This document shows, piece after piece, positions 3,001-35,200 of a DNA stretch of 64,000 nucleotides. This stretch comes from Beroe forskalii. Taxonomy: Eukaryota; Ctenophora; Nuda; Beroida; Beroidae. Positions within the stretch are counted from its first letter, which is position 1; the number at the start of each line of letters is the position of its first letter. Both the position numbers and the translations under genes were made by a program. The DNA lies in NCBI GenBank assembly GCA_011033025.1, contig WFMF01000376.1, forward strand, positions 62,001-126,000, given 5' to 3'. The notes under the pieces were generated by a model. The model worked only from the letters and a program-made list of their open reading frames with translations, was not told the origin of the DNA and searched no databases.

Positions 3001-6000
3001 GAACTTCGACTCCGACAGCATTTCACTTCAACTCAAGGATGTTTGGAACGACATAGGCGACTTCTTGACGAGCGAGCTGATCATATGAAATGCTTGTCAT
3101 GCAACGTACTTTTCACAAGGTTGTGTGAGCTGCGTCGCCATTTGTTCAATCACCCCATTTGCAAAGAGGAGCACACTCGGAAGCTTCTTGATAAACCAGG
3201 CGAGGCTCTCTGCTTCTGGTGTGGGCTGACTATTGAAGCAGAAAGATTTGCCAAACACTTCGAGAAATGCAGTGTTTCTGATACTCTTGAAGACTCAACT
3301 AAAAATACTCAGAGAGATAAGAAACTTGAGAGTATCATATCGTGTGACCAACAGGTAAGTGATGATCAAAAGCAGATTTCTACCCCAACTGAAGAGACAA
3401 AAGGACTTGCTACCCCAACTGAAGAGAAAGGAGGAATTGAAGTGTCTTCGGTTCACTGTGATGGAGGTGAGAAAGGGGAAGGTAGAATAGAAGAAGATGA
3501 AGATGAAGCAAAATTGACATGTGAAGAACAGTCCAGTAATGTGGTACTGGCTGCGGATAGTTATGGCACAACAGTTGACGCCCCAACTGACGATAAAGTT
3601 ATGGTTGTGATGCCACAAAACATGGATTGTACAAGCACTGTTGTCAAAACTGAAACAGGTAATTTCGATTGTATATTTTGTCTCAAAATGTCGGTATCCA
3701 TTCTGAATTTGTCAGTTACTCCAATAGTAAGCGTGATACTACCAAGAAACGATTCTGATACTTGTACTGGTTGACCAGAGTCACATATGCCCACAGTACC
3801 CTATGACCATTGACCACCAGTCCTCTATGACCACAGTAACTGATCATGGTCATAGAGTACCAAATCTTACCTATTGCTCACAGTCGCCGTTGACCACTAT
3901 AATAAGCTTGTAACATAAACCATTTCACCATTGAATAAACATCACAAGCCACGGTTCTGACTAAGAGAGTGTTAATTTGACCTATTCATTAATTCGTAGG
4001 TACATGGGTCATGGAAATACTAAGAGTGAATACTTGAATCAGTTTTGAAAATTCACAAAATAATTGGTGCCCCAGGGTGGGAGTTGGTCAAATTCAAGGG
4101 CGAGTAACCCAAAATGGGGGATAGGAGATTTTAAAAGGGCGGTTTGAGGGGGATTGGGCCCACGATGAAGCTATGGGCATCGATATTCTTTGACAAGTTC
4201 ACATCTTCAGATGAAGACAAAGTCAGTACATCTTACGATACGCCATCTTCGAGCCTCAAATCTTCGAATGATGCTGGCTCTGCACCAGCCGATGAACTAC
4301 CATTTATTACCCCTAAGATTGAGCAAATACCTACCTATGATTCAGAGTCTGACGATGTTCCCAATGTTCCGAAAACCGTATTGAATCAGAGTCGTGAGCC
4401 GAAGAACAGAGTAAAGTTTCCACATCCTCGTGTAAACGAGAAAGAGATGCATTGCACAAAGTGTGATGTGTCGTGGGAAACTAAGAAAGCCGCCCGATCA
4501 GATGTCATCAGTCACGTGATATCAGAGCACTGCACCAAAACAGCTGTGTGCACAGAGAGTGACCCTTGTACGGGGTGTTATGATAGTGTCAATGATATTT
4601 GGAGTGGTAACTCCCTCATCAAATGCACTCTGTGTGAGTGTACATGGTATAGTACCGCCAAGTTCATCTGCAAGAAAGGTCACCTGTTCCTTCATTTCCG
4701 ATCAGAACATTGCCGTACACCAGAACCTGGATGCACTAACCGGAAGCCGTGCCAGGAGTGCAGGATGAATGTCAGGCAGGTAATGAAAAGTGGGCAATGG
4801 CAGAGGCAACCATGTTACGGGTGCGGTAAAACCTACACCAAGGCAACGAAGCAAACTGCCCACCTGGAAAAGAAAATGCATCTACGAACTCATCTCCAAC
4901 AAGTGGACAACATGTCAGAAAAGGACTTCCCACCGGGCATTGAGCTGTGCTTCGGGTGTGGGAGTCTGCAGACAATGCGAGGCATAGGCCGACACCTCAG
5001 CAAATCCCCGGGTTGTACAGCTCGCATGAAGATGGTGAGTGAGGAACGTGCTAAAACTGCTTTCAAGTGCTTGGCGTGTGAGGAGACACTCAGCTCCAAA
5101 GTGGCCCTGATGCGACACCTCACTGAGAATGACGGGAAGTGTACAGAGAAGCACGCCCAGAGACTGCTCCGACTCCCCCCTGACCAGATGAGACTGTGTT
5201 TCGAGTGTGGACGGATCTACGAGTCCGCAGACTTCCCACGACATCTTCAGGAGTGCTTGTCTGGGTCGTCAGACATCGAGACTACCGAGCAAGGTAGCAC
5301 AAATTAGTGTACAAAGTAAAGTTTGATAACTTTGACTTTGTTTAGATTTTCTTGGTGATATTTTGGGATATCATAGGAAAGGAAATCATGCCGTTATGCG
5401 CTTTTTCGAGATAGTGGAGGCTAAGGTCCCCCTAGATTTTTTTCTAGGGGGGAGGGGGGCTTAATTTTCATTAGCGAATTGTCACTTTTCAAAGCCCTAA
5501 TTTTGCATAGAAATACAACTAAAATCAAGTTTTCTGCTTGCTATGATTCTGTAAAGATGGACTTCAAGGAAACCCATTTAAACTCCGCCCTTATACTGAT
5601 TTTTTCTGGGGGTGTATTTCGAAAACTAACGGTGTAGTCCCATGGAGGAAATATGAAATTTTTGGGGCAAAAACTTATAATCCATACCTATGACATCCCA
5701 AAATTTTTCCAAGAAACTTCAAAACTTCAAGAAAATTTTTGGGCCAACCAGATCCTATTATGGATTTGACGGAGCTTGTTTGTTTCATGAAAAATCATGT
5801 CTCATCGTTAAGGTTGACTGTCATCTACCTCCTCAAAATAATAAACATTCCATATTGAGTTTGACATGGTTTCATCCGCAACTTACCCTTTGTTTATCAT
5901 TCAGACAATTTGGAATGTTTTGGATGTAACACCACGTTTCCCAACCTGGGCGCCCTCAACAACCATGTTCGGCACACATGTAAGGGCGCGCACATCGACC

Positions 6001-8424: not shown

Positions 8425-11400
8425 ATGGCATCAGAGAACCGCGGTGGGAGGAGTAGGAAGCACAAACTGTCCTGTTACCGGGGGGACAGCCAGGATATAA
8501 CCTCTGATGGAGCCTGTTCTAACCGAGGTTTGATGTGGGGGATTAATAAAGCTGCTGCGATTCACTCAACAATTCTCCTGGTGAATTTCAAGAAATGATA
8601 TTTCAAGAAATGAAAACTTGAATTATTTTTCTCTGTGGTATCTTGCTGTTCTCAGTGTCAAAGCTTACTAAAATTTCAATGCTCCACACAAAAACGTCAA
8701 TTTATTGCAGCGTATAACTCCTGGGAAGACTCTGATGATATCAATTCTTACTTCTGCCAACAACTCTCAACTCTATCCATACCAAGTAAATATTATGCTG
8801 ATACTCCATATATTTTCAGTCTTTCTGATTATTCCGGCTCTCCAGATTCTCACTTCAAACATTTAGGATACTGAATAATCTCTGCTTCTCGTTGAATCTG
8901 AATGGAAAAATATTACTATTAAGTTTTCTAATTTCAACCGCAATGTTATTTTGAAATTGCTATAAACTGTACATTGTGTTCCCACTGACACCAACAGTCC
9001 CTCTCAGAAGGGTATCCCTTTGACCTCCCCATCCCCACAGAAGGGCGTCCCTTTGACCACCCTCCCCTCAGAAGGGCATCCCTTTGACCACCCTCCCCTC
9101 AGAAGGGCATCCCTTTGACCACCCTCCCACACAAGGGCATCCCTTTGACCACCCTCCCCTCAGAAGGGCATCCCTTTGACCACCCTCCCCTCAGAAGGGC
9201 ATCCCTTTGACCACCCTCCCCTCAGAAGGGCATCCCTTTGACCACCCTCCCCTCAGAAGGGCATCCCTTTGACCACCCTCCCCTCAGAAGGGCATCCCTT
9301 TGACCACCCTCCCTCAGAAGGGCATCCCTTTGACCACCCTCCCTCAGAAGGGCATCCCTTGACCACCCCCCCTCAGAAGGGCATCCCTTTGACCACCCTC
9401 CCCTCAGAAGGGCATCCCTTTGACCACCCTCCCCTCAGAAGGGCATCCCTTTGACCACCCTCCCCACAGAAGGGCATCCCTTTGACCACCACAGAAGGGC
9501 ATCCCTTTGACCACCCTCCCCTCAGAAGGGCATCCCTTTGACCACCCTCCCCACAGAAGGGCATCCCTTTGACCACCCTCTCCTCAGAAGGGCATCCCTT
9601 TGACCACCCTCTTCTCAGAAGGGCATCCCTTTGACCACCCTCCTCGTAAGAAGCTGAAAAGGAGGAAGAACAGAAAGGTTAAGAGGAGCAGGGTTGCAAG
9701 ACCTGCTCCCAATATGTCAGAGAGCTCCGATGTGACTCCTGCTAGCCCTGCCAGCTCTCACATGGTGGGTAACCCTTATCAGAGTTTTGAGTTCGGGAAT
9801 AGGGATCGTTCACATTATTATGTAACCACTTTTCGGCCACTCTTAACACGAGGGCTGCCTCTTCCGTCATCAGCCGTAACCAGGCCTCAAAATCTCAAAC
9901 CCCCTCCTGAGAAATCAAGAATTGAGCTCGTTTTCTCTAACTTTTCCTTCCCCCGTTTAATTGTAATTATTAGTTACCAATTCATGAAATTCATGAATCA
10001 ATAAAGTCTGTCGGTGATCATTATATTTCAGCACTGAAGATGATGTTGAACATCGAATTTTAATTGAAGACCATTAACCTTTCGTTTCCCTTGTACGTCG
10101 CAATTAGAGGAAAATTAGAATTTACTTCAATCATCAGTGATCATTATACATACTTTTTGGTGAAATTTTGGCTTTTTGGCCAAGCTATCGGCGTTTTAAG
10201 CAGCAAAACATGAAAATTTCGATGAAAAAGGAAATTAATTATATTTGCGCTCATTTGAACAGAACAATTGAATATAAGAAAAAGCCTCTTTAAATCTTGA
10301 AGAGTCCTAGAGTACTTGGTACTGTAACTTAATTGAGTATTCAGTATCATCTTCTTGGATTAGTTTTATTGAATTCTTGTTTTGTTTTGTTTTTTACACT
10401 TGATTTTCATCCCTGATATTATGTCTCAGTTTATATATTTTCACCGTGTTCAATCTCAGAAAAGCGTTGCTAGTGACGACACGATACAAGAGGCTATGTC
10501 GGTGGGGAGCCACAGTAGTGATAGCTCACTCAGCCTCGGACACATCACTGACTTAGGTGAGTGAGTACTGAGTGTACACTTGGGCAGAGTGTACCTAATG
10601 TAATGTTATTTTCATAAAAATTATTTCAATCAGCATGATCCCATAAAACACTCCATATTGAATTGAAATAAAACAGCTGTTAAGGTTTTAAAATTCATTC
10701 TTCATCATCAATTAAATCAGCAGTGATTTAATTGACATTCGTCAATAGTAGCAGCAACTACAGACAAATCCTGAGGCACCAATTGAAGCGTTTTTTTTAC
10801 AGTCGAGACATAACTATCATATCAACTATGGAGCCCATTCATGCCAGAAAAAATGTTGAGTACCTCAGCAGTGCCGAAGGTAAATAGAGAGCCATGTCAG
10901 GTTGGAGAGCAGCCCGTATCCCAAAGCCATACGAGACTCTAGAGACAATTCAGTTGACTCACTATGACTCTCTTAGATCCTTTTGCCGGCTTGAGAACGT
11001 AATTCTTGACAAAGTTATAGCTATTAAGTGGTTTTGTAGAAATTTAATCTCATACATTTCGTCTGAGAAAACAATCTACTCATAGGTGTTCTCATTCTAA
11101 GAAGCCCTAAAATTTCCATGACTTATATCCAGACCCGAAAATGTTTCTTAATTTCATGCTTTCTTATTTTTCTGTCGATTAATTCATGAAAACTAAATTT
11201 GTTACAATGAGGCACCCCTACTTTTGGAGTTTTGGGCTGCATCCCCTGAGTCGTGGCGCGACACACGTCATCAGTGTTTTTCAACCACTGCCTTTGAGCC
11301 TTTGAGCCAGTAATCTTGTCTCAAACAAGACAAAAGTTTCATTTCAAACGTTACGCTGAAACAGATTATTCCAGAAAGTGTCAATGAAAGCAGCACGTAC

Positions 11401-14400
11401 ATAGAAATGTAAGGAGTCAATGCCATTACCACGGCATTGGATATGTTCCAAAATACCTCAACAATCGTGAAAATTGTATCTGGCTCGAAATCTTTCATCG
11501 TGTTAGGGTCCCTGGATATTTTCCCAGCTGCTACAGTCATGTTAAGTCCTGCTACAGTAAATGAAATGCCACCTAACACCCCAATAAGGTAGACCACCCA
11601 GTCCCCCGAAGGGAGGATTGAGTCATTCCCCTCTGTTGCGTGATGTAGAGAGTTGTTAGGGAAGACTAGCCCAACAACCACCATCCACCCCACTCCTGTG
11701 ACTGCCTGCACCAAGTTGAGAGCCCTGTAGCCGAGCAAGGCAGCCGCTGTGTCGTAGAGGCCGGTGCCGAAGAGTCGGCACACGCCCACCACCCCACCCA
11801 GCACGGGGATGAGGTGCCGGTCTGCGTAGGTGGAGCTGATGCACATCGGCAGCACCGTGAGCAGAGACCACGCGGCGCCGTGGTAGATGTGGCTGACGAG
11901 GAGGCATCGCACGCGGGGCTCACAGAGCAGGGTCACCATGCGGTGGAGGGTGACACAGCTGTCAGACTCTCGAGTGGGGGGAAGTGAGTCCGGGGGATCT
12001 GGGGAGGAAGCACATTATACTGGTGTACTGAACAAGTGCACAGAAGTAAAGCATATCCCGTTTGGAAGTTTACAGTTTCCTGCCAAGTTTCATCATTGAG
12101 TTTTACCTGCCAACTAATATACTACATCTGCTAACATAAACGAACCAGGTAGTAAAAGGTATACTCTTTAAATCTCCCAATATCTCAATACAGTTACCTG
12201 ATATGAATACGTCATCGTCTGACGCCTCATCTCCTAGGAGTAGGGCGCTGTCTTGGGGCAACTGAGACGTCTTCTCCCTGAAATAGTTGAAAATAGTCGA
12301 TGATTTGAGAAAAATACCGTCTCTCATAGTAGTTATTGTACAAAATCTTACACCTTCGGCGCTATGATTTGCCAATCCACCAATAAATACGCTAATGGAA
12401 TATTTGAATATGCATTCTAATGGAATGAGGAAGAGTTTTCAAGTTTCCATACTTTTTGGCGCCTGGTTCGTGTGCTTTACCGCCCTCGTTCTTGGAAGGC
12501 CTCACTGCCACCGCTGCAAACACGCCAGATGCCACGGTGAACACAATACATAACCCAAAGTATAGGGTACGTGTTGATTTGGTGATCCTGGTAGAGTCAT
12601 CCAGGCACAGGTAGTTCATCAAATTTCCTGGGCGGATTCCGTGGGAATTAGAATGATGTGAAAACATGATATTTCTTCATACTGCGTCGCATCCCGTGAA
12701 CCCACAAGACATATTCATTTGGGCGAAAGGCTTGTTTAAAAACTGAGAAAACATCTGAGTATATCTTGAGGTTTATTTAAAACCTGTGATGCCGTTGAAG
12801 TTGTAGATAAAGAGATGGTAACTGAGGTTCCGTTCGATGTGCTCGTGTTTAGAAAGACTTGTCACAAAGTTTGGTGTTACAACCCAAATCATTCCCGTTC
12901 CTACACCTGAAAGTGGAGGCAGCAATAAGCTTTAGTTACGATTCATAGAGTAGAGGCTAGGTTTCTGAGGTATTGATTGAAGTCTTACATTTCATTTTAT
13001 CTATACTCATTACTCTCGTCTACTTTGCTAGCGTGGAACCACACTAGCAAATCGGTTGTGGACCGTTCCGCTACTGGTTCGCAAGCGGTTCGCTAGCGTG
13101 GAACCACGCTAGACCAACTCGTCAGGGTGACCTGTTCACAGACAATTCTCCATTTAACACTTGGACTTGTGTCTGATATAAGTCAAGTTAGGTACTGAAA
13201 AGTTTGGCATCAATCTTTAACTGTCACATCAATACAGGGTGTTTCGAGTCTCGTGTCTAAAAAGTGATTCTTTATTGCTTAGTTCATAGAGGAGCAAATG
13301 TTTGACTCAAAACACCCTGTACATTACAAATGTTCATTGCTCACCAACCTGTGAGCACAGATCCGAATACTATCATGAACTTGTTGAGTGTAACCATGCC
13401 AGCATAGAGCCCTGTGTGCAGTAAACAGGATGCTGCTATCAGAGCCCTGTAACCCACCCAGGGGCGAAGTGGTGGAGAGATCAGGGCACCAACTATAGCC
13501 ATCACTGCTATAATACCTGTAAGATTGGGGTTAGGGTACCAACTATAGCCATCACTGCTATAATACCTGCAAGATTGGGGTTAGGGCACCAACTATAGCC
13601 ATCACTGCTATAATACCTGTAAGATTGGGGTTAGGGCACCAACTATAGCCATCACTGCTATAATACCTGCAAGATTGGGGTAAGGGCACCAACTATGGCC
13701 ATCACTGCTATAATACCTGCAAGATTGGGGTAAGGGCACCAACTATAGCCATCACTGCTATAATACCTGCAAGATTGGGGTTAGGGTACCAACTATAGCC
13801 ATCACCGCTATAATACCTGCAAGATTGGGGTAAGGGCACCAACAATAGCCATCACTGCTATAATACCTGTAAGATTGGGGTTAGGGTACCAACTATAGCC
13901 ATCACTGCTATAATACCTGCAAGATTGGGGTTAGGGCACCAACTATAGCCATCACTGCTATAATACCTGTAAGATTGGTGTAAGGGCACCAACTATGGCC
14001 ATCACTGCTATAATACCTGCAAGATTGGGGTTAGGGCACGAACTATAGCCATCACTGCTATAATACCTGCAAGATTGGGGTTAGGGCACCAACTATAGCC
14101 ATCACTGCTATAATACCTGCAAGATTGGGGTTAGGGCACCAACTATAGCCATCACTGCTATAATACCTGTAAGATTAGGGTTAGGGCACCAACTATAGCC
14201 ATCACTGCTATAATACCTGCAAGATTGGGGTTATGGCACCAACTATGGCCATCACTGCTATAATACCTGCAAGATTGGGGTTAGGGCACCAACTATAGCC
14301 ATCACTCTGACTAAAGCATCCTAGTTTTGAGGCTACATACTCTGACTGAAGTATCCTAGTTTTGAGGCTACATACTCTGACTGAAGTATCCTAGTTTTGA

Positions 14401-17400
14401 GGCTACCTACTCTGACTGAAGTATCCTAGTTTTGAGGATACCTACTCTGACTGAAGTATCCTAGTTTTGAGGCTACATACTCTGACTGAAGTATCCTAGT
14501 TTTGAGGATACCTACTCTGACTGAAGTATCCTAGTTTTGAGGATACATACTTTGACTGAAGTATCCTAGTTTTGAGGATACATACTCTGACTGAAGTATC
14601 CTAGTTTTGAGGCTACATACTTTGACTGAAGCATCCTAATTTGAGGCTACATACTCTGACTGAAGTATCCTAGTATTGAGGCTACATACTTTGACTGAAG
14701 TATCCTAGTTTTAAGGCTACATACGTTGACTGAAGTATCCTAGTTTTGAGGCTACCTACTCTGACTGAAGTATCCTAGTTTTGAGGATACCTACTCTGAC
14801 TGAAGTATCCTAGTTTTGAGGATACCTACTCTGACTGAAGTATCCTAGTTTTGAGGATACCTACTCTGACTGAAGTATCCTAGTTTTGAGGCTACCTACT
14901 CTGACTGAAGTATCCTAGTTTTGAGGATACCTACTCTGACTGAAGTATCTAGTTTTGACTGATCCTAGTTTTGAGGATACCTACTCTGACTGAAGTATCC
15001 TAGTTTTGAGGATACATACTCTGACTGAAGTATCCTAGTTTTGAGGATACCTACTCTGACTGAAGTATCCTAGTTTTGAGGCTACATACTCTGACTGAAG
15101 TATCCTAGTTTTGACGAAACCTACTCTGACTGAAGTATCCTAGTTTTGAGGCTACATACTCTGACTGAAGTATCCAAGTTTTGACGCTACATACTTTGAC
15201 TGAAGTATCCTAGTTTTGAGCTACATACTTTGACTGAAGTATCCTAGTTTTGAGGCTACCTACTCTGACTGAAGTATCCAAGTTTTGAGGCTACATACTC
15301 TGACTGAAGTATCCTAGTTTTGAGGCTACATACTCTGACTGAAGTATCCTAGTTTTGAGGCTACCTACTTTGACTGAAGTATCCTAGTTTTGAGGCTACA
15401 TACTCTGACTGAAGTATCCTAGTTTTGAAGATACGTCCTCGCCACTGTCTTCTAGGGCTGTGTTCATGAGACTGGTTGACGTGTTGAACGCTGCATTGAC
15501 CACCATCAGCACCAGACTCACTGCGATGATGTTCCATATCTCCACATGTCCCATCCTTGGAATGATTAAATGTGAATTGGAGGCTTGAGGGCAGGAATGT
15601 TCAATCCAAATATTCTCATCTAGTACATATCCTGACTACACAATTTTCAATAAGAATTGGAGAAGGAAAAATTTCTAACTTAGACTTGAGTTACGAGTTA
15701 CCTAGTTCATAAAATCAAAAAGTAAAGGAGGAAATTTTCAGTCATCTTGACTCTTGTGCAGGGATTAATTAATGCGGAAATAATCAAACTAGAAATAAAA
15801 ATTAAGAATAAAAAGCCGCGCTTCAAAATTAAAAGCTAATTAAGAAATTTTTATTAAACCATATCTCTACAAAAAGAATTTCACCGGGCTGATTGCTGTA
15901 ATCCTTTATTAGCATCATGATGCCATGCTTGATTCTGTGAGGATCCCTCATAGATGAAGCTTTGTTCTTGACGTTGGACTGGTTTTCAACAGTTCAGGGG
16001 CACTGCAGCTTAATATTAAACAATGTAACACATTCCTGTGATGCCGCCCTGGCCAGGGCGATAACCCCGTGGAAAAAGAGAGTCGTGACTATCTGAACGA
16101 TTTATCGAAAAATCTTGGAAGCGTGAAATGCTGACCCTAAGCCCTCCTGCAATAATAAAAGGGAATTTGTTATTTGATAAACTTAATGATACAGATGCAT
16201 TTCACTGCGGGTAAGGGGAGCAGTAGAGCACAGCAGTAGAGCACAGCCACACTTATAATGTGCCACAAGCTTAGAATGTAAAAACCACTGAGTTGGATAT
16301 CAAACAAAACAAAGAGCAAAGACAATATGTGGAGTACAGTACCGTGCCAATGAAACGAAGAGCTTCACGTTATTGATCACATTCGACATGATGCTGAACG
16401 TGGACATTTCATTTAATCTGTGCATTGTACAATGTACATGTGCTTATTTTGAGCTCTTCAAGAGCTATCAACTACTTCGAACATGAAGTTATTAAATCGT
16501 ACAATAAACCTGGCATATAGGCTGAGCAGGACAGGGGGACATAGACACAGGATAGAGAAATAGAAATAGAAATAGAAACAAAGCCAAGTCAGAGAGCAGT
16601 AACGTCAGACTTAAAAACATGGGGTACACAAACGCGCAGTGGTAGCTGTCCTTGTATTACTGGTAGTGCGTTATCGCACTTTTATAGCGTTCTACACTTG
16701 TATAGCGTTACAAAAATCGTAAAGCGTTATCAAACGTTTTTTATCTACTTTTTTTTTAAAAATTTTCTTATTTTTTTATTTTTCTTTATTTTCGAAATTC
16801 ATTATCAATTCTAGGAGCACTCAAAGATTACGGTGTGAGCGGCAAAAATTTCAAAAACTTGGTACGAATGATCAGTAAAAAGCTCGGTTGAAATGTATTT
16901 TTCTTCAAGGCGAAAATTACCTTTTAAATTTTCGAAAAACAGCACTCAGAAATTACGGGTTTACCGTCACAAATTTTAGAAAAAGGAACAAATTTTTGAT
17001 AATAGTGTGTTTCGTTCACTGCAGACTTCATTCAATACACTATAATTGATTAGATACACTATAATTTATTAGTTTTAATACAAATCTGTAATGGATTGCT
17101 TCATGGATACAATCATATCATACGGTGAGTAACCGTCTATGAATTTTATCATGACAAAAATCGTGATTCGTGAAATGATTTTTGTTTTGTTTTCTATTTA
17201 TTTTTATAATTTAACTAGAATATTTTTGTTGAAAAAAGCAAAAAAATGTGTTGGACTCCCCCCTTCGTCACTATCAAATGGGCCCGCAAGTTAAGCTAAT
17301 TAACGCTGAGTCAAAAACTCAATGCTGTGATTCTCAGGAAACGAATGGAAATCTCACTTTAGCTAACTTTAGCACACACTCAACCAATGCTTTGTGGTTT

Positions 17401-32200: not shown

Positions 32201-35200
32201 AACTTTTCAATGATGGATATGAAATAGCTGAGTTTCAACGTATAGAATAAAGTTACCACCTATTCTAAACATAACCTTTCAGAGGTGAATGAAGTTATGG
32301 ATCCTGCTGAGAAGACAGAAGCAGCTCTAGCCACGGAAACGATTTCAATTGCACAAGGTAAAGCAGCGTGTGTCTCAATTATGATACTTATAATGTCAGA
32401 CCTGCTGATATTATGCACCATCATCTGGCCTACAAAGCAAAAGGATTATGAAATTGAAACAAATTGATGACTAGTATTCTAGTCATCATCAAGTAAATTC
32501 TTATCTGGTAAAATGACCGTTTCAATTTCAGAAGATAAAGAGAGTGATGCAGAGATTGGGAAGATCGCTGTAGAACAAACCTCTAATAAGAACATTCCAG
32601 CATTTGCTGATGAATCTGTGACGCGCCCTGTCACTTCGGTCCATTCTCTTCGTAGCCGAAGGACCCGCTTCTTAGCTTCAGTGAAAGAAATCACCGAAGA
32701 AGAAGAAGAATTTGAAGAAGAGGTCTTGGTGACGTCTCCCAGTTTGTCCTCTGCAGGAAGCACAGCATCGTTGAAAAGCTCAGCATCTGCCAAAACTGAC
32801 GCATCCAGAAAAAGTTATAGTTCTGCCAAAAGTTCTTCCTTGAAAAGCTCTGCATCTGTAAAAAGTTCCTCATCCAAGAAAACTGTTCCTTCAATAAAGA
32901 GCTCTGTCAAGAACTCTGCTTCTGAGAAATCCTCTGCTTCTCAGAAAACAACTTCCAGGAAGAAAAGCAGCAATACAGTCCAACGTAGCCAGGAAACGCA
33001 AATTGAATCAGCAGAACACGTTGAAAGCTCTGATAGTGAGCTGACAGCAGTTCCGTCGACAACTTCGACGATCAGAGCTTTTGAAGAGGAATTGGAGGCG
33101 CTGGGAGATATCGCCCTTATGGGGTCCCTGGCTGACGATAAATCAGCTGCGTCTCAAGTTGGAGTTTCACGAGAGCCATCCAGTACATCCGTGAAATCTT
33201 CAAAGTCAGTGAAATCAGACATCGGAATTCCCAGGGAATCATCTAGGACATCCAACAAGTCCGCTAAATCTGTGAAATCTCAAGTTGGAATTTCACGAGA
33301 GCCATCGAGTACATCCGTGAAATCTTCAAAGTCAGTGAAATCAGACATCGGAATTCCCAAGGAATCATCTGGGACATCCAACAAGTCCGCTAAATCTGTG
33401 AAATCTCAAGTTGGAATTTCACGAGAGCCATCCAGTACATCCGTGAAATCTTCAAAGTCAGTGAAATCAGACATCGGAATTCCCAAGGAATCATCTAGGA
33501 CATCCATCAAGTCCTCTAAATCTGTGAAATCTCAAGTTGGAATTTCACGAGAGCCATCGAGTACATCCGTGAAATCTTCAAAGTCAGTGAAATCAGACAT
33601 CGGAATTCCCAAGGAGTCATCTAGGACCTCCATCAAGTCCTCTAAATCTGTGAAATCTCAAGTTGGAATTTCACGAGAGCCATCGAGTACATCCGTGAAA
33701 TCTTCAAAGTCAGTGAACTCAGACATCGGAATTCCCAAGGAATCATCTAGGACCTCCATCAAGTCCTCTAAATCTGTGAAATCTCAAGTTGGAATTTCAC
33801 GAGAGCCATCGAGTACATCCGTGAAATCTTCAAAGTCAGTGAAATCAGACATCGGAATTCCCAAGGAATCATCTAGGACCTCCATCAAGTCCTCTAAATC
33901 TGTGAAATCTCAAGTTGGAATTTCACGAGAGCCATCGAGTACATCCGTGAAATCTTCAAAGTCAGTGAAATCAGACATCGGAATTCCCAAGGAATCATCT
34001 AGGACCTCCATCAAGTCCTCTAAATCTGTGAAATCTCAAGTTGGAATTTCACGAGAGCCATCGAGTACATCCGTGAAATCTTCAAAGTCAGAGAAATCAG
34101 ACATCGGAATTCCAAAGGAATCATCTAGGACTTCCATCAAGTCCTCTAAATCTGTGAAATCTCAAGTTGGAATTTCACGAGAGCCATCGAGTACATCCGT
34201 GAAATCTTCAAAGTCAGTGAAATCAGACATCGGAATTCCCAAGGAGTTATCTAGGACCTCCATCAAGTCCTCTAAATCTGTGAAATCTCAAGTTGGAATT
34301 TCACGAGAGCCATCGAGTACATCCGTGAAATCTTCAAAATCAGTGAAATCAGACATTGGAATTCCCAAGGAATCATCTAGGACCTCCATCAAGTCCTCTA
34401 AATCTGTGAAATCTCAAGTTGGAATTTCACGAGAGCCATCGAGTACATCCGTGAAATCTTCAAAGTCAGTGAAATCAGACATCGGAATTCCCAAGGAATC
34501 ATCTAGGACTTCCATCAAGTCCTCTAAATCTGTGAAATCTCAAGTTGGAATTTCAAGAGAGCCATCGAGTACATCCGTGAAATCTTCAAAGTCAGTGAAA
34601 TCAGGCATCGGAATTCCCAAGGAATCATCTAGGACATCCACCAAGTCCGCTAAATCTGTGAAATCTGAGGTTGGATTTTCACGAGAGCCATCCAGTACAT
34701 CCGTGAAATCTTCAAAGTCAGTGAAATCAGACATCGGAATTCCCAAGGAATCATCTAGGACATCCAACAAGTCCTCTAAATCTGCTAAATCCCGATGATC
34801 AAAAACAGATAATACAGAAAATCAGAAAGCATAAAAAAATGAAACAGTGCTCTGACAAAAAACTTTAAAAGTACAAAAACACAAAAAAATACATTAAAAC
34901 ATTGTACTGATACGCGTTACAATGTTGCATGACAATGTTGCATTACACTAATGCATAACAATGATGCATACCAATGATCCATGATAATTATGCATTATTT
35001 TGTAATTTGTTGTATTGTAATTGTATTTTGATTATTCTGTATATTTTGTTTTGTATATAAAATAAGAACAATAAAAATTGTTTTATTGAGTCTCATCAAC
35101 AATATAATTTCACAAAAAAATGATATTGAATCATCGAATGTAGATTTCACAAGTGTCGCGAAAAATGAGAATTTTTCTGGAATTTCTGAGTCGCGCGGTG

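Follow-up and report, generated by a model that had tools for sequence, protein, structure and literature searches.

How does a cell find the two ends of an intron that is assembled from copies of its own splice junctions? The question is raised by intron 1 of an UNC-93-family gene encoded on the minus strand of a 64,000-nucleotide (nt) stretch of DNA, referred to here as the window, which covers positions 62001-126000 of contig WFMF01000376.1 in a 216-Mb genome (G000:C443:62001-126000). Intron 1 consists of two abutting minisatellites, one derived from the donor edge and one from the acceptor edge, and no other intron sequence lies between them.

The gene model comprises six exons with a 474-residue open frame, and all five introns (5/5) have GT-AG ends. 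Exon borders were set using reading frames, splice sites and the UNC-93 pattern. The predicted protein is transporter-like (MFS) and matches Pfam family PF05978 with 94.6 bits against a curated cut-off of 22.9 (E 9.3e-27). This match, together with homolog and paralog alignments that run through the junction, upholds the UNC93-family assignment and the intron borders proposed in an earlier note on this DNA. Since the gene is on the minus strand, the 5' half of intron 1 has the higher coordinates. The features are as follows.

15404..15554, minus strand: exon 1, coding from the ATG (151 coding nt); the 25 nt at its 3' end supply the exon portion of the 35-nt unit (gene model; alignment with homolog P0001 from residue 4)
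15403-13517, minus strand: intron 1, 1887 nt (gene model)
14306..15403, minus strand: donor array, the 5' part of intron 1, with 31 further 35-nt copies (repeat analysis, copy table)
13517..14305, minus strand: acceptor array, the 3' part of intron 1, with 16 acceptors, of which one is real and 15 are decoys, and a partial copy (repeat analysis, copy table)
14304..14306, minus strand: fusion point of the arrays; AGT is common to both units (junction sequence)
13349..13516, minus strand: exon 2 (168 nt); the 32 nt at its 5' end form the exon portion of the 50-nt unit (gene model)
12784..12906, minus strand: exon 3 (gene model)
12453..12627, minus strand: exon 4 (gene model)
12198..12277, minus strand: putative exon 5, placed by the open frame and GT-AG sites; the homolog aligns poorly there
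11271..11998, minus strand: exon 6 and stop codon, completing the 474 residues (gene model; PF05978 match)

Anatomy of intron 1

Tandem Repeats Finder rows jointly span all of 13483-15428, and their scores, which reach 1501 and 1100, exclude chance as a source of the arrays. The donor unit of 35 nt joins 25 exon nt, TCAAAACTAGGATACTTCAGTCAGA, to 10 intron nt, either GTATGTAGCC or GTAGGTATCC. A donor is carried by 32 copies, exon 1's own included (17 GTATGT, 14 GTAGGT and, at the fusion of the arrays, one GTGATG). Copy spacing is mostly 35 nt, with three irregular steps of 34, 50 and 34 nt. The acceptor unit of 50 nt is made up of 18 intron nt, CTAACCCCAATCTTGCAG, and 32 exon-2 nt, GTATTATAGCAGTGATGGCTATAGTTGGTGCC. 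Sixteen copies carry an acceptor, the exon-proximal one included, and all are placed at exact 50-nt steps; one further partial copy is without an acceptor. The innermost donor copy is fused to the acceptor array, and the innermost donor-acceptor pair is 74 nt apart.

The copies resemble the true exon edges closely. The consensus built from 30 intron copies of the 35-nt unit is identical to the exon-1 copy, and between the acceptor consensus and the exon-2 copy 1 of 50 positions is different. Across the copies, 15 of 35 positions in the donor unit and 10 of 50 in the acceptor unit are variable. GT is kept in 32/32 donor copies and AG in 16/16 acceptor copies, with no changes at these bases in the 30 donor and 16 acceptor copies compared. 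The 16 acceptor copies each hold a branch-like motif (CTAAC in 11, CTTAC in 4, ATAAC in 1), and every one of them reads AGGT across the splice site (CAG/GTATTA, with the slash at the site). Exon-edge copies amount to 1275 of the 1887 nt of intron 1 (67.6%). These values agree with the earlier note, which had described an intron without unique sequence, about 32 donor units of 35 bp, two thirds of the intron as duplicated exon edge, and splice sites retained in nearly every copy. Its figure of about 17 acceptor copies of 50 bp is corrected to 16, the 17th being the partial copy that lacks an acceptor.

No further loci with either array were found in a genome search that skips very common words. 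In the minimum-energy fold of the intron, 146 of the 660 paired donor-array bases pair with the acceptor array, a count that has no control fold beside it.

Productive and non-productive site pairs

The coding outcome of each possible splice was determined by joining the 32 donors and 16 acceptors of the arrays in silico; the 512 pairs cover the unit donors and acceptors of the two arrays. A single pair, the exon-proximal one, reaches the real stop codon (1/512), as had been claimed for full-length protein. The 511 non-productive pairs stop early, 496 at codon 53 and 15 at codon 70. Transcripts from decoy donors meet a stop two codons past the junction codon, and those from decoy acceptors meet one within about one unit.

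The earlier note had concluded that the cell must choose 1 of roughly 32 x 17 site pairs. It was right that only one pair is productive. The count, however, is 32 x 16, and "1 of ~544" overstates the problem, because a splice between inner sites does not remove the outer donor and acceptor, so that the outer splice can come after it, and because sites next to the exons are preferred under exon definition. When sites were chosen blindly and repeatedly in a toy model, 18.6% of paths ended at the correct outer pair. Nested splicing that proceeds from the inner shell outwards was tried as the sole route and rejected: in the toy model it leaves 16 donors and no acceptor, and it never gives the right product. 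As the real and decoy sites are locally alike, site selection must rest on their context.

Age of the intron and origin of the arrays

Several alignments bear on the age of intron 1. P0001, the single homolog at E <= 0.001 (7999 candidates scored), aligns with 33% identity and without a gap across the exon 1-exon 2 junction. Ser 51, the residue split by the intron, is aligned to a serine with no adjoining gap in six of nine paralog alignments (L010-L014 and the first piece of L015); the remaining three (L022-L024) are gap-free through the junction, with a non-conserved residue at this position. In two distant paralogs, L029 and L032, an intron of approximately 560 and 130 nt, respectively (manual count), occupies the same position in the same phase 1, which argues that the intron is old. 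Arrays of at least five copies were looked for inside these two introns and none were found. The second exon of L029 looks degenerate, and that of L032 reads on. Judged from these alignments, intron 1 is most likely ancestral, and amplification would have affected its ends only. At least six UNC-93 paralogs (L010-L014 and L022) match as one uninterrupted piece, one of them (L013) with an in-frame stop. The window gene has kept old introns, and this contrast suggests that the six are retrocopies. L029 and another UNC-93 paralog, L030, lie about 30 kb apart in opposite orientation (G000:C173) and give closely similar matches.

The explanation we favour, at a probability of roughly 0.72, is that of an ancient spliceosomal intron in which each end seeded a minisatellite (a double 'mirage', after the amphioxus repeats discussed below) and in which the exon-proximal pair is used. 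A minisatellite would have been seeded at each end of the old intron 1, and copies would have accumulated on the intron side, with no selection against them while the exon-proximal copy remained the one in use. A deletion with 3-nt microhomology would have fused the donor and acceptor arrays. By published rules, the exon-proximal pair would be the one used, as the real sites flank real exons of 151 coding nt and 168 nt. Each decoy copy included would add about 35 nt to exon 1 or 50 nt to exon 2, and transcripts spliced in this way would be expected to undergo nonsense-mediated decay.

The arrays most likely arose by neutral expansion that was tolerated on the non-coding side, since the genome is rich in minisatellites and a second exon-edge array was found at the stop codon of a WD40 gene. 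Outside the intron-1 array, arrays with a period of at least 15 and at least three copies cover 17,999 of 276,106 bases (6.5%) in a sample that was chosen by homology and is not random. The second exon-edge array, met by chance (L066:5490-5761, in G000:C492), contains nine 30-bp copies of the last codons (DKVLKLWRA) and the TAG of the gene, which we take to be Notchless, and runs into the 3' flank. It is the one match among 17 to WD40, in five regions (L066-L070), that touches an array. At 11 UNC-93 and 30 kinase loci, 8 of 41 open reading frames touch an array with a period of at least 9; in the three of these eight that were looked at closely (L020/L031, L055 and L063), the arrays abut the 5' edge of the exon and do not include it. 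This genome has many minisatellites, and of those at coding edges some have survived on the non-coding side.

Use of the outer pair is favoured by amphioxus, where reverse transcription PCR suggests that mirage introns are spliced regularly, and this pair is probably found through exon definition. A human study reports that exon definition favours the sites closest across the exon and intron definition those closest across the intron (PMC9225289). These rules conflict at this locus, as the outer pair flanks the exons and the inner pair is 74 nt apart. Three points weigh against use of the exon-proximal pair. The innermost pair, at this short distance, is favoured under the intron-definition rule. 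Human 3' splice sites are reported to show an overall upstream preference, which here means the decoy side, although exon definition weakens it (PMC9225289). A human donor matrix gives 0.24 to the real donor and 0.24, 0.65 or 2.44 to the common decoys, but this matrix is a poor guide here because it gives the donor of intron 3 a score of -4.11.

A different reading of the acceptor array is that its copies are tandem dual-specific splice sites, each acceptor also serving as a donor, so that 50-nt units or multiples of them would be removed before exon 1 is joined. The AGGT in 16/16 acceptor copies is what this predicts, and there is a precedent in human UBC, a polyubiquitin gene, with such introns reported in excess among human tandem-repeat genes (PMC10809524). 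That AGGT, however, may merely reflect the old phase-1 border, as CAG/GT is found in L029 too, and GTATTA lacks a G at +5. On the human donor matrix, with its poor fit to this gene, an acceptor copy scores 0.19 as a donor against 0.24 for the real donor, and the junction formed after joining exon 1 scores -5.48. The latter is a very poor donor, which makes recursion after joining unlikely; copy-to-copy removal could act mainly before exon 1 is joined. We regard the dual-specific reading as doubtful. A broader version, in which the acceptor array is a self-erasing ladder of splice sites leading in 50-nt steps down to the exon-proximal acceptor, and double mirages are a tolerated and possibly recurrent route by which a non-cephalochordate animal rebuilds introns out of their junctions, is speculative and somewhat harder to credit. 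If the arrays were instead a selected regulatory device, decoys would divert transcripts to nonsense-mediated decay and array length would set expression. The unchanged GT and AG in 30 donor and 16 acceptor copies and the early stops in all 511 non-productive pairs are in line with such a device. Intact sites are unsurprising, though, where variation affects merely 15/35 and 10/50 positions, and the copy table gives no signal of selection on decoy sites either way, its variation being too low. Minisatellites are, moreover, common in this genome, and the edge array in L066 lies at a stop codon where no splicing choice arises. Regulation as the reason for the arrays is improbable.

Neither of two further accounts is given much weight. 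Intron 1 could be a new intron, gained by tandem duplication of an exonic AGGT sequence. Intronless relatives do exist (the uninterrupted paralogs), duplication-born introns are documented in potato RdRp and Drosophila, and the exon sequence immediately before the donor array bears a weak resemblance to the unit (its score is reached by 27 of 1157 overlapping windows from the same gene). The intron shared in position and phase by L029 and L032 speaks against a recent gain, and so does the acceptor unit, in which 18 nt come from the end of an intron rather than from an exon and include a branch-point-like motif. Gain by exon duplication is disfavoured by the same two paralogs, and we consider a new intron very improbable. 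The least credible account is that the arrays were misassembled or that the gene is dead. Assemblies break down at repeats, and one amphioxus mirage was reported to be aberrantly assembled in the draft genome (PMC3087553). The copies here, however, are not identical (15 and 10 positions vary) and are flanked on one contig by intact exons, and a dead gene fits poorly with an open six-exon frame and GT-AG at all five introns.

Other arrays were observed near exons and in the window. An intron of an UNC-93 paralog (L031 ~3282-3465, the same as L020:2473-2656, G000:C2) is largely an 11-bp array (ATTCCTGTTTA) up to an acceptor ending in TTCCTGTTTACAG. At L055:1428-1498 and L063:2520-2566, short arrays with CTAAC- or TAACC-like units stop at the probable acceptors of kinase exons or close to them. 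In this genome, branch-point and pyrimidine signals may be provided by arrays. At window positions 8998-9643, ahead of an open frame, there is a 31-bp x 21 array whose plus-strand unit contains the acceptor-like CCCTCCCCTCAG; this may be a further acceptor array. The 126-bp x 13 array at 33152-34791 (97% matches) has a unit that is a multiple of 3 and possibly codes for a 42-residue repeat. A 147-bp x 24 array (L034:1507-5077, in G000:C443:54000-63500) lies shortly before the window.

Comparison with known systems

The choice of the spliceosome among near-identical neighbouring sites is usually studied with engineered minigenes. Intron 1 offers a natural case: its 32 donors and 16 acceptors hardly differ in local sequence, and one pair is productive. 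Exon definition, intron definition (through the 74-nt inner pair) and dual-specific collapse predict different junctions, which can be counted.

Several systems share single elements of this structure. Human UBC is described as having tandem AGGT sites, one per repeat unit, as in the acceptor array, where AGGT occurs in 16/16 copies and use as both kinds of site is a prediction. The UBC units, however, are 228-nt coding units that are spliced in or out in frame, whereas the 50-nt unit here shifts the frame and leads to a stop (PMC10809524). In human IFI6 (6-16), a tandem repeat likewise supplies several donors; downstream units used as donors are reported to yield three mRNA species, whereas here every decoy pair ends in a stop and amplification extends to the acceptor side. 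The intron gains described in potato RdRp and Drosophila resemble the present case in that a tandem duplication affects either the border between an intron and an exon or a coding stretch that includes a proto-splice site. They differ in that the intron here most likely predates the duplication: an intron gained in this way would be absent from ancestral relatives, and L029 and L032 have one at the same position and in the same phase. Tandem repeats at human exon-intron boundaries are also reported as possible sources of novel introns (PMC2812944). An intronic minisatellite near alternative splicing in Caenorhabditis elegans (PMC4039745) and the minisatellites in earthworm metallothionein introns (PMC12783039) are reported as well and were not used in the argument. 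Among the literature matches listed, an intron amplified at each end is not described in any title or abstract opening.

Judging from the mitochondrial code of its COX1, the host is probably not a cephalochordate, the group in which mirages were reported, although their mechanism does not depend on that group. This gene, on contig C1134 (L071), is very divergent. It has five in-frame TGA codons at Trp and seven AGR codons, of which five coincide with Arg residues of the aligned solved COX1 chain, a pattern that fits mitochondrial table 4. For amphioxus mitochondria the code is table 5. Searches for GFP and globin sequences gave no match, of which the GFP result carries little weight because that search was negative in all its control genomes as well. 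A divergent COX1 read by table 4 may point to a non-bilaterian animal, perhaps a ctenophore.

The closest known structures are those amphioxus mirages, found in Adh3 and in the globins BflGb6 and BflGb9. They are described as minisatellite-like repeats whose unit spans an exon-intron boundary, affecting 5' or 3' borders, with many copies that retain AG/GT signals and with regular splicing undisturbed as far as RT-PCR suggests (PMC3087553). Unstable length, from haplotype to haplotype or tissue to tissue, is a further trait of mirages. Reported units are 10-72 bp long in Adh3, and the globins have at most six repeats of 150-160 bp at one border per gene (PMC3087553). Both arrays of intron 1 have a unit that spans the exon-intron boundary and copies that keep AG/GT, a likeness that on our side is known from the genomic sequence. 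A precedent for the structure exists, as the amphioxus mirages are of the same kind. By its sequence, the double mirage is best described as an extreme case of this little-known repeat type, and it suggests that the type occurs beyond amphioxus and is able to replace a whole intron. Unlike the amphioxus cases as reported, intron 1 is amplified at either end, with 31 decoy copies of the donor unit and 15 of the acceptor unit. The combination of two amplified ends, high copy numbers and no residual intron sequence sets it apart from them.

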